A DNA stretch of 64,000 nt, taken from Apostichopus japonicus. Lineage: Eukaryota > Echinodermata > Holothuroidea > Aspidochirotida > Stichopodidae. The notes below the pieces were generated by a model. That model was not told the DNA's origin. It was given only the letters and a program-made list of their open reading frames with translations, and searched no databases. A program made the translations under genes and the position numbers. The stretch lies in the NCBI RefSeq assembly GCF_037975245.1, contig NC_092568.1, forward strand, positions 4,413,001 through 4,477,000, read 5' to 3'. Below, in pieces: positions 5,222 through 62,584 of this stretch (position 1 is the first letter of the stretch; each line of letters starts with the position of its first letter).

Positions 5222-5882
5222 CAAGGGCGGCGGAAGCACTTTTAATCTGGGGGGGCACCGACATCAAAGGGCACTTTGCAGAAATTCGATTGGACTGATG
5301 TAGCCTGATATTTAGTACCCTTTAGTACCCTTTATATCTCTTATTGTATTATCTTATTTGCGTATACACATCACTCCATCCCCCCCCCCCCCTGAAGGAA
5401 AATACTAGCACTACTATACTAGCACTGCAATATCCAATGTGCAAATTGGGAAACAGGGAACAAGTTTTCTATTGAGACAAATGAGGTGAAATCATGCTAG
5501 TTGCTAATGTAGGAATCTTCCGAATTAGAGTTTATTTCTTGTTAATATCTTAACAAATTGTTTCCATTCGAAATAGCTTTGAGTTTGACCCACATATATT
5601 CATTAAAAGTCAGGGGCGTAGCCAGCATTTGCAAAGTTGTATGTACGACTATCTGAGCGGAGCGCCACCATCAGTTGGCGCGGAGCGTACAAGAAAAATT
5701 TTGGTTTTACAAACCCCTCAGATGGCCGGAAGCGGCCCTTCCCGAGTGTTCATTCTGGTTCCCTGGCCTCTTGCTAACTTGAGACACCTCAATTTTTATG
5801 TAGAAAAAGGGCACATTTTTAACCCTGAGGAAAAGTGGGGGGGCACGTGCCCCCTGTGCCCCCCCCGGTTCCGCCGCCCTTG
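5222..5882. mobile_element. hAT-like MITE, 661 bp
   Basis: The inverted termini are caagggcggcggaagc and cggttccgccgcccttg. The 8-bp duplication caccagat is perfect at 5214-5221 and 5883-5890. A family A fragment starting caggggcgtagccagc (about 5613-5790) is inserted inside. There is no coding capacity. Confidence 0.85.
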
Positions 5883-53855: not shown

Positions 53856-56800
53856 CTATTCTCTAGCGAGGATGTCTACTTCCATGAGAGTGGTGGCAGC
53901 AGAGTCTAATGTGAAAGCGACAACAGACATGTATCTCTCAACCTCTTTCCATTGGCTCTCTGGATCCGGTTGATTTTCTATATCAAACATAAGATCAACG
54001 ATACCAGGGAACGCCACACCAGTGTAGGAGTCCTTACTGCTAGGCGCGAAAACGACATGCCTGATTGTATAAAAAAGAACACAAGGATATAAGGTCACGG
54101 ATTCGATTCGACACACTTTAAATAATATATGCCTTTACCTTTAATTGGTTTGAACTTTTCTAGTCTCATGCCATAACGTAGCGACCGTAGAAAAGGGGCA
54201 TAAAGGCGAGAAAACAACCTAATGCTCAGTATTACGTTGGGTCCCCAAAATATTGAGTTTAAATTAGTGTAATACAAATAGTAAACTATAATTCCTTTCA
54301 ACACCATCCCTAAAATAAAGTTTCCATTCTCACAAAGACGAGAAGTTTGACGCTGTTGGAGTATATACAAAACTAATTGCACTCCTTGATTCAACAGAAA
54401 GATTACTGCATGATATAAGTTGGGCAGCTGTCATAGGACATTCTCGTATAGCCCCTCTCGCCGCCCCTCCCCTCTTACCCCGTCTTTTTACCTTTCTCGT
54501 GGTCTTCCGGGCAGACCAAGTGGGTCAATGAAGGCTCTCTCCATAAACATGAGTTGATCATTAACTGCACGGACTGCGAAAGGGCTGAAAAGTAAAATAT
54601 AAAATGAACTCAAAACAGAGCGTTAATGAAGGGCTGTATATATACGAACTACTCTTATTCTTAAAATTTTCGTGACTATTTCTTAAAACATAATTCACTA
54701 AGAATTTTTCGTATTTAAGTTCGAGAAACTGGAAATTAACAGAAAGTAGTACTTACTTTCTCTTGTCCATTTCTTCTATTCGTTCATGAAGTTGATTCGC
54801 GGCATCCGTAAACTTGTTCAAATTATCATCAATTGCATCTAAAAAAAAGTGAATTATTGAGATAAATTGTTATCTATACGCATATATTGTTCGTCACGGA
54901 GAATATTATGGCGTATATTATGTAGGCCATGTCTGTAAATCACGTCATTTTCTGAAGTTACTTAATCCGTAACAGTTAACGTTTCCTGTAAAATCATTCG
55001 TAAACCACACAGTTTTGCTTCACTATTTGAAACGTGAATAATCGATAAAAAATCATACTAAAAACCAAACATTTACTTTCTACAAAACTTTAACCGCTTT
55101 ACAAAGAAATTGAATCTGATAACAGAGACAGTCATCTTAACGCAGTACTGTATGTACGATATGTACTATATGCAGGGGCGGGTCCAGGATTTTGAGAAAG
55201 GGGGGGCCGACATCCCGATGGTAGCACTTTAGTGATCTGTGTACTGGGGGAGGGGTCTAGGGGGAGGGGTTGTCCCCCTCCCCCTTGGAAATTTTTGGTT
55301 AATTGTGAGTGCTTAGATGCAAAATGGTGAAACATTTCGCCAAAAACTAGAAAAACCAGAAACGTTGCAGACACGCTTTTTTGTGCACATATTTTTTCTC
55401 GATAGACACATATTTAACAACGCTCAACAGTGCATGTACAATGGATACACTATTATTGCGTCGATTCGTTTTTTCTTTTGCGCGAAAATTATGACACCAG
55501 ATTCACCCCAAGAAAAAACATAAAACAAGATATATTCAATGAGATAATTATGATATACTTATTGATGAAAGGGGGGTGTAGGCGGTTTTACACTATCTAA
55601 CGCAACGTAGTCGCTAAGAACCTGAAGTATTTTTAAGGGAAGGCCCGATAATAAGCGGAAACGGATCACCGTCCGAAAAAATATCGGAATTTGTGGACTA
55701 TTTCTTGCTTCCTATTGTATTAAAACAAAGCACCTATGTGAAAGACACAAATCACATTCTGAAAATTGTGGAAGCCACCCCTTTACCAAAAGCAGTAGTA
55801 CTTGCTACACTCGATGTCGTCGCCATGTATACCAATACTCCCCAAGAGGAGGCATTAGATATATGTCAAGAAGTCTATGAAAAGGCGGAATAAAGCGAAT
55901 ATGGAATAAATAAAATATCTTCCATATCCATGCGCAAACTAATTGAACTTATTTTTAACAAGAAACTGTTTCAAGTTCAATAACCAATTCTATCTACAAA
56001 AGATCGGTTGCGCCATGGGTAGCCAAGCCTCTCCGGAAATCTGTGATATCGTCATGCATAGACTGGAAAACCAGATTTTACCGACAGATAATAAAATCTT
56101 AAAATGGCTCCGCTATAGAGATGAAATTCTATTGCTTTACGACGGTTCACCTCAGGAACTTGAACAACTAGTAAACAGGTTGAATGAAATTCACCGCTTC
56201 TTAAAGTTTACGGTAGAAATATTACACACCGAGGTAACATACCTAGATTTGAAAATCTTCAAAGGTCCAAGGTTTGAAACCAATGGGTTATTAGACACCA
56301 AAGTCTACACCAAACCCACGGAAACCTTCCAATACCTCGACAGAAACTCTGCACACCCACTTGCCACTTTTAAAGGCTTCATTAAAGGGGAAGTCTTACG
56401 ATACGCACGTCTCTGTAACAATGAGACTGATTTCTTACAGAAAAAGAATGCGTTCACAGAGAAACTGTTACTCCGTAACTATAAGAAAGAGGAAATTGCC
56501 TTAGCCACGAAAGGCATAAAATTTGAAAACCGTGGGCAATACCTCACTACCAAACCTAAACAAAAGGAACCACCAATGGTGTTCAAGCTTACCTATACAC
56601 CCCATATCAAAACCACGCATTTGAAAAATGTACTTTTGAAACATTGGCACTTAATCTCGCAACACGCGGTCAGGGGCGTAGCGAAGTTTTTTTTGTTGGG
56701 GGGGGGGGTATGGAGGATTAGATTTTCCGACGGATCTGGATGTGGTGACTGAAATGGGGGAGGGGTCTAAGGGGAGGGGGTGTCCCCCTCCCCTTTGGAA

Positions 56801-58893
56801 AATTTTTATTTTTGAAACGCCCTTAGATGCAGTCTGGTGCTTATTTTAAGTCAAATTTGGCACCGTAGAATTTCCATTTCGATATTATTTTTATGGCAGT
56901 CGGCAGAAGAAGAATTAATTGGGACCAATTATCGAACTGTGTTTTCTCTTTCACCGATCGTTGAAATAGTGAAACTTCGTGATGAAAATGTTCAGAAGAC
57001 TTTCCGGTAATGAGAAATAACAACATTCATTGATATACAAGCGAGAAACGTTAAAAATTGTGTACAATTCGTGAGCCGTGTCCTTAAGTTTTCCACGGAG
57101 AACGAATGACATCTGCGATGACGTCATTCTGAACAGCGGATAATAACAACACGTTGTCACACGATAGCACGACTCATGGGCTGCGGCCTATACGGAAGCC
57201 TTTAATTCCATTTCTTTCACTGAGTTGCCGGCAAATCTGGCACTCGTCTAGCTGAGCCTGGCTACAGTATAGCTATACTGACGGCCGTGACATTATCAGT
57301 TATTTGCCGAGAGGTTTTTAACTTGCAGGCGTCGGGTGATTGGATTGGTGAATGAGTTTATCAGATGAATAACTGGAAAATCGAAATAACCGATAAAGAA
57401 GCTCCCGTTCTCCTTTTCTCTATTCAGCTTTCCTTCTTTCTTCCCCTTCCGCTCTCTTCACCTTTTCTCCTTTTGCCGACAGACCCAAAATTTGCCGACA
57501 GCGACCAAATTATTGGGGGGTGTGACACCCCCACACCCCCCCCCCGCTCGCTACGCCCCTGCACGCGGAATTATCCAAACTGTTTCCAAAAGAACCGATT
57601 CTAGCCTACAAAAGGGCCCCAAATCTCAAAGATTTACTTGTTAACTCAAGGTTTCATACTAACGAAGAATCAGCTGACTCTCAAGGTTCACACGAAGCTC
57701 TTTTAGATGCTCTTATATCTGCACTATGAGTCCATAAAAACTCGTGCACAGAAAATAGATGCATTTTGAGAACGAGACGCCCAGGCCGAATATAAAAAAT
57801 TCAAAGGCTACTACTGATGAAGCTCCTCCTATAAAGTTTGAGAGCAGAAACCGGTCTAGTTGGTCATAAGAACCTACACTAGTCTCTCCTACTATTAACA
57901 GTACACTCAATTCACCTAATAGGTGCAATTATGTTTCACCACGAGGAGCATGCTATAAGTTCATGTTCCTCGGGCCCTCCCTTAAAAATACTTCAGGTTA
58001 TTGGCGACTACGTTGCGTTAGATAGTGTAAAACCGCCTACACCCCCTTTCATTCAGATAATTATGATATACTTGCTAACTGTGCATTGATTTTCCCTGAC
58101 AGTAATAGTCAGCACTATAGTACTGAGCCGTATCTAATTAATACGTGATGTCGCGTAGGCCTGATAATTGCCTTAGTTTCAAATTTGGAATAAAAACGAT
58201 CGCGTTTCAGGAAAGAGCAGCTGGATATATATTAGGCTTTTCTTTCACCAAGTTATGCCTATTAGGAATTTGAAGTACTCCCACATAAAAAAAACGCAAC
58301 TGATTTCCAAAAAGGGGGGGCCGGGGCCGGGTCGGCCCCCCTGGATCCGCCCCTGACTATATGTACGATATGTACTGCTCTGCTCTGTTCTTCGTCGTCT
58401 GTGTTTTGCTCACCGAATGTAATCGGATTGGGTCGTGCAGCCATTTTAGCTTCGTAATTCGTCTTCAGCACGGTAACCGATGATCTCATACGTTCCGCAT
58501 AAGCCTTACAATTAATCGGGATTATCAGACTATCCGACAAAGCTAGAGCGATCTCTGCCCAAACACGGCCAACCACCAGATGGTGTTCAAAGGTCGGATC
58601 CATTATGGCAGACATGAGATGAAATGTCTCGTACATCGAATGGTAGAGAGGGTAACTGGATAATCCTAGGCTCTGAATTTAGAGAGATTAAAAATCAAAA
58701 GTTTTAATTAGTAAAATTATGACAAAGATATATGATGAAGAAACGTTTACAACTATAATAAACTTGAGGTAGTGGTTGGTTAGTCTTGACGTATTTTTTT
58801 GTCAATCTGAGAAATCTTTAAGTGCCAGCAGGAGGTGAAATCTGTTGCTTAATTCCTTTTGTTGTTGTTTTCCTTTCATATTTGTAACTTCTG

Positions 58894-58953
<60 letters not shown>

Positions 58954-62329: not shown

Positions 62330-62584
62330 TATTAAAATCGTAATGAGTTGGAAAATCAACAACAGTGAAAAAACTTCCAGCCTCCACCGGGATTCGAACC
62401 CGGGCCTCCCGCTTTGTACGCGGACACCCTAACCAACTAGGCCATGGACGCTGATTGTATGTCCAGAGGTTCGAAACCGGTAAGGAAGGTCGTAATTCCA
62501 CTGTAGGCGTTTGACACCTGTATCGAACAATACTAGTTCTGTTTTTGGTGACATATTTTGCCTTACTCCAGAGATCAAACATGA

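Follow-up and report, generated by a model that had tools for sequence, protein, structure and literature searches.

A Penelope-like retroelement remnant and a second hAT element as probable cargo of a non-autonomous hAT5-like transposon in Apostichopus japonicus

Here, we describe a three-layered transposon from Apostichopus japonicus that very probably moves as a single element. It occupies 3,183 bp of the window, by which we mean the whole 64,000-nucleotide stretch that was analysed (NC_092568.1, positions 4,413,001 to 4,477,000). We read the structure, with a probability of about 0.92, as one non-autonomous hAT5-like cut-and-paste transposon that received first a Penelope-like element (PLE) and then a hAT element with 8-bp duplications, and that was amplified as a unit. 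On the best reading, the unit has spread to about 185 places or more, and one of these jumps was its arrival in the present intron. It would thus clearly exemplify the dispersal of a retroelement fragment by a DNA transposon. It also indicates that target duplications stacked at a locus are not necessarily a record of events there; here, comparison with other copies reversed the local order. As an element the unit is of an ordinary kind; what is unusual is how clear its arrangement is.

Three pairs of direct repeats bracket the three layers, each found by reading the window and by script. The outer ends, CAGGGGCGGGTCC...GGATCCGCCCCTG at 55173-58355, are flanked by ACTATATG/ACTATATG (8/8 identical). 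The 19-bp sequence AGATAATTATGATATACTT stands at 55542-55560 and again at 58055-58073 (19/19 identical), bracketing 55561-58054, and CACGCGGT/CACGCGGA (7/8 identical) brackets 56671-57561. By simple arithmetic, abutting exact repeats are expected by chance at about 1.5e-5 for 8-mers and about 4e-12 for 19-mers, so these pairs are not chance matches. A preliminary description of this DNA had proposed three nested elements with a target duplication for each entry, and this much is confirmed. The mismatch in the inner pair is a later change, since the left copy is CACGCGGA in 14 of the 15 loci with a readable left side. The sole exception, L002, shares the window's T and is also the window copy's nearest relative in the copy tree.

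Features, in window coordinates:
55173..58355, plus strand: proposed mobile unit, a non-autonomous hAT5-like transposon with two nested passengers, 3,183 bp (59-copy comparison, 185 right-junction matches)
55165..55172, no strand: left outer target duplication ACTATATG, 8 bp (5 bp in most other copies)
58356..58363, no strand: right outer target duplication ACTATATG (window reading and script)
55240..55296, plus strand: subterminal block of the outer element, rich in G/C (89% identical to 56750-56806 of the inner element over 57 nt)
55542..55560, no strand: 19-bp duplication, left copy (internal to the unit, shared with other copies)
58055..58073, no strand: 19-bp duplication, right copy (internal to the unit, shared with other copies)
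55561..58054, plus strand: 5'-truncated Penelope-like passenger; a piece of its own 3' end is inverted and placed on the 5' side
55565..55648, plus strand: inverted pLTR-like arm, left (pairs with 57970-58052)
57970..58052, plus strand: PLE 3' end, right arm of the inverted pair
55943..56670, plus strand: reverse transcriptase (RT) fragment, split by the inner hAT element (Pfam RVT_1)
56671..57561, plus strand: inner non-autonomous hAT element, 891 bp, with CAGGGGCGTAGCGA / TCGCTACGCCCCTG-type ends (8-bp duplications, empty sites)
56663..56670, no strand: inner target duplication, left copy CACGCGGT (CACGCGGA in 14/15 readable loci)
57562..57569, no strand: inner target duplication, right copy CACGCGGA (locus comparison and script)
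58481..58663, minus strand: host exon of a glutamate carboxypeptidase 2-like gene, preceding the unit's intron in gene direction (phmmer against PDB, E 1.6e-12)
54756..54842, minus strand: next host exon of the same gene (phmmer, peptide joined to that of the following exon at about 54491-54583, E 2.1e-14)

The same stack recurs across the genome. With a query that starts outside the outer end and runs into the PLE, 1,214 first-look candidates were obtained, of which 40 were scored. The window itself is among the 40; the remaining 39 align from at or near the first base of the outer element into the PLE, at 96-98% identity. Together with 20 loci from the best 40 of 876 inner-element candidates, these make up the 59 other copies that were compared. 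All five segments (two outer arms, two PLE parts and the inner element) are present in 49 of the 59 and four in a further nine, while L008, which is cut short, has two; some of the missing segments reflect the limits of the fetched stretch. By segment, the outer left arm is found in 56 copies, the PLE 5' part in 59, the inner element in 58, the PLE 3' part in 58 and the outer right arm in 52. Longest-piece identity to the window ranges from 80.9 to 99.4%, with the minimum in an outer left arm. Among the window and the 39 loci chosen by outer element plus PLE, the 19-bp junctions are found in 40/40 (left) and 36/40 (right), and the inner junctions in 32/40 (left) and 37/40 (right). The right PLE/outer junction has 185 matches genome-wide within 3 mismatches, against 0 for the control.

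The 19-bp and inner 8-bp duplications occupy the same internal places in other copies and are thus inherited cargo. As both were carried in with the unit, the outermost duplication records the most recent of the three events. The preliminary description had taken all the flanking repeats to lie outside the elements, the stack to have been built at the window locus and the outer duplication to be its oldest event. The comparison overturns each of these points: two of the three repeat pairs belong to the element in other copies, and only the outermost marks a local insertion, the latest of all.

Mean pairwise divergence among 32 copies is 2.2% for the outer element, 2.0% for the PLE and 2.7% for the inner element. 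The copy tree is star-like, with 79% of its length in terminal branches and a few nearly identical pairs. Recent activity had been proposed from the perfect outer repeat, which is insufficient by itself; the low divergence between copies does favor it. Between-copy distances of the PLE and inner element are correlated across these 32 copies (rho 0.465, 0/1000 permutations), those of the outer element and PLE only weakly (0.300, 25/1000), and those of the outer and inner elements are uncorrelated (0.142, 158/1000). The copies may therefore have exchanged sequence, or the short arms may be noisy.

The unit's assembly can be partly ordered from empty sites. The preliminary description predicted empty sites with a single target sequence at each level. 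For the inner element, PLE sites with a single CACGCGGA do exist, with 134 genome-wide matches within 3 mismatches, 42 of them exact (control 0). Patterns allowing substitutions only, applied to 63 loci, gave three inner-empty sites (L061-L063) and no outer-empty site; none of the three is an outer-plus-PLE unit that lacks the inner element. Patterns allowing up to 4 edits were non-discriminating (outer-empty 39/40 and 15/20; inner-empty 29/40 and 14/20) and were set aside. The nesting and the inner-empty sites uphold part of the proposed order of outer element, PLE and inner element. We infer that the outer element existed before the PLE entered it; because an outer element without PLE has 0 genome matches within 3 mismatches, the evidence for this step is the 19-bp duplication.

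The duplications themselves are compatible with the reverse order, in which the PLE already contained the inner hAT when it inserted into the outer element. We consider this order unlikely, because all 20 of the further loci chosen by inner element alone (from the best 40 of 876 candidates, and thus the best-scoring ones only) show one or both outer arms, suggesting entry of the inner element into a PLE that was already in place. In addition, one candidate place, C20:16295191-16295707, picked by eye among the matches listed, looks like outer element plus PLE without the inner element. There, a PLE/outer junction stands 449 bases from an empty inner site of the same strand; the corresponding distance in the window is 459.

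We therefore favor insertion of the PLE first, and propose the following steps. A Penelope-like retroelement would have inserted into an ancestral hAT5-like transposon, generating the 19-bp duplication, and a second non-autonomous hAT would then have entered its reverse transcriptase, generating the 8-bp duplication CACGCGGA. Because the package would have kept its outer ends, it could still be bound and moved as a whole by a hAT transposase supplied from another genomic site. The package would then have spread as a unit, with one jump landing in the present intron.

The junctions of the unit with surrounding DNA support this scheme. Perfect 5-bp duplications flank 44 of the 48 copies in which both outer ends are readable. 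The misfits are the window (8 bp), L014 (7 bp with one mismatch), L027 (none) and L031 (5 bp, one base off). Among 29 duplications tallied from L001-L039 there are 28 different 5-bp sequences, and alignments of copies to the window end at the unit's two ends or within a few bases of them. Segmental duplication or satellite-like spread, which the unit's abundance might bring to mind, is extremely improbable given these defined ends and varied 5-bp flanks. Three independent insertions piled up at the window locus, outer element first, would give each layer its own flanking repeat, as is seen; this history is scarcely credible, however, since both inner duplications recur at the same internal places in copies elsewhere that have their own 5-bp duplications.

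Transposition by a trans-acting hAT transposase that recognizes the outer ends is probably the simplest driver. The outer terminal inverted repeats, CAGGGGCGGATCC/GGATCCGCCCCTG, are of hAT type, and we take them to represent the hAT end motif. A similar end adjoins a hAT with a 772-amino-acid open frame. Among 150 scored hits, 18 slices next to hAT open frames were examined, and an autonomous partner with the unit's exact ends was not found among them. Two of the 18 (L081 and L074) have outer-like ends, neither identical. The L081 hAT, which has the 772-amino-acid frame, ends in TGGATACGCCCCTG and aligns to the outer left end at 70% over 98 columns (E 9e-9, pairwise and without low-complexity filtering). 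Its terminal region occurs in multiple copies.

The hAT group that makes 5-bp duplications is hAT5 (Kapitonov and Jurka 2007, as cited in PMC12730594). The outer element fits this group in its hAT-type ends and in the 5-bp duplications of 44/48 readable copies. A further likeness is that its terminus resembles the end of the hAT with the 772-amino-acid frame, which also has a Pfam hAT dimerisation match. The outer element differs in being non-autonomous and in holding two other transposons, and its classification is by ends and duplication length. The window copy departs from the group by its 8-bp duplication. Judged by the duplications of the family, the outer element does not count as an ordinary 8-bp hAT.

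The unit also lends itself to testing whether the length of hAT duplications is set by the enzyme or by the element. If the enzyme sets it, the perfect 8-bp duplication in a 5-bp family, taken with the CAGGGGCG start shared by the outer and inner elements and with their 89%-identical subterminal blocks, which lie 67 and 79 nt from the respective left ends, would point to a jump driven by another hAT transposase, one that makes 8-bp duplications. That two or more hAT transposases can mobilize the outer unit is nevertheless a tentative suggestion, and we hold it to be doubtful. The outer insertion site lies within a short imperfect direct repeat, ACTGTATGTACGATATGTACT (window 55147-55172 and 58356-58376), which may bear on the window copy's odd 8-bp duplication.

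The inner element resembles MITE-like non-autonomous hATs with 8-bp duplications. It has CAGGGGCG ends and an 8-bp duplication in three insertions: its duplication is CACGCGGA in most readable copies, and two further insertions of the family, in L004 and L046, have cctcgtgg and tatctaat, respectively. It differs in that its best-scoring copies (best 40 of 876) travel as the outer element's cargo and in its length of 891 bp; typical MITEs are shorter. Its match to the L081 hAT is limited to a short subterminal stretch (25 nt at 96%). The second inner-family insertion in L046 lies in the PLE and contains a locally repeated segment, with inner positions 46-188 present several times.

The Penelope-like passenger is a remnant. 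Its inverted arms pair over 80 nt at 95% complementarity, with an 11-nt outer extension, and the left-arm sequence recurs at the 3' end of L062, a free PLE copy, within a terminal tandem repeat of 237 bp (97.5%); L062 lies outside the unit. The window's RT fragment, whose motifs we read as those of Penelope, matches RVT_1 at E 1.5e-6 and 28.5 bits, slightly below the curated cut-off of 29.6. One frame of the free copy L062 reaches 35.6 bits against the same profile and thus exceeds this cut-off; its upstream frame has no Pfam match. By eye, RT-like sequence in L062 extends upstream of the point where the window's PLE starts. The RT had one PDB match, a group II intron RT (E 6e-5). The GIY-YIG endonuclease gave no Pfam match in the few frames tested, and the PLE remnant may simply lack this domain.

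The presence of an RT fragment raises the alternative that the unit was moved by retrotransposition through the PLE reverse transcriptase and not by a hAT transposase. This is highly improbable: copies end at hAT-type and not PLE ends, with constant 5-bp duplications, and the RT lacks its 5' part and is split by the inner element. Furthermore, the RT columns that vary among copies number 45, 45 and 58 at the three codon positions, and compared with the window, a stop in register or a net change in length is seen in 26 of 32 copies. These values also speak against the RT as a driver, and on their account it appears to be largely neutral cargo of the hAT5-like unit.

Penelope-like elements of Adineta vaga have inverted pLTRs and target duplications, according to passages of PMC3846280. 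The passenger resembles the elements described there in having a truncated RT between inverted pLTR-like arms and a target duplication. It differs in the length of the duplication, 19 bp versus the 8, 9 and 10 bp given there, in being a remnant in which no endonuclease was found, and in that it now rides in a DNA transposon.

The PLE 3' end (window 57815-57858) contains a CTGATGA...GAAA arrangement. We take this to resemble a hammerhead core; an Rfam search of 57740-58060 gave no hammerhead match at E up to 10. Rfam returned only two insignificant microRNA matches for the PLE 3' end and an insignificant snoRNA match for the unit.

The same PLE family also sits in a second, different TIR element. 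At L061 (about 1275-2492) and L063, the PLE 3' part lies inside an element with the right end TTAAGACGGCCCTG, and in L061 ATGACTCC flanks both of its ends. The PLE junction of this second element has 20 matches genome-wide. The PLE family's occurrence in two such elements may mean that it repeatedly spreads as cargo of DNA transposons, a reading that we hold to be doubtful as well. Among the open-licence papers listed, we found none on point for composite or nested co-mobilised elements, and passages of PMC4726161 proved unrelated; we do not claim that such accounts are absent from print.

The placement of the unit in a gene intron, as first described, is supported by the flanking minus-strand exons, whose predicted peptides match glutamate carboxypeptidase 2; judged from these similarities, the host is a glutamate carboxypeptidase 2-like gene on the minus strand. 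Pfam did not recognize the upstream exon (58481..58663), with only a sub-threshold AAA_31 match. An AT dinucleotide repeat run lies near the host exon (window 58900-58952). Elsewhere in the window, another hAT-like element of 661 bp (5222-5882) has CAAGGGCGGCGG ends and a perfect 8-bp duplication, caccagat. The window also holds a tRNA gene match on the minus strand at 62379-62451 (Rfam, 54 bits).
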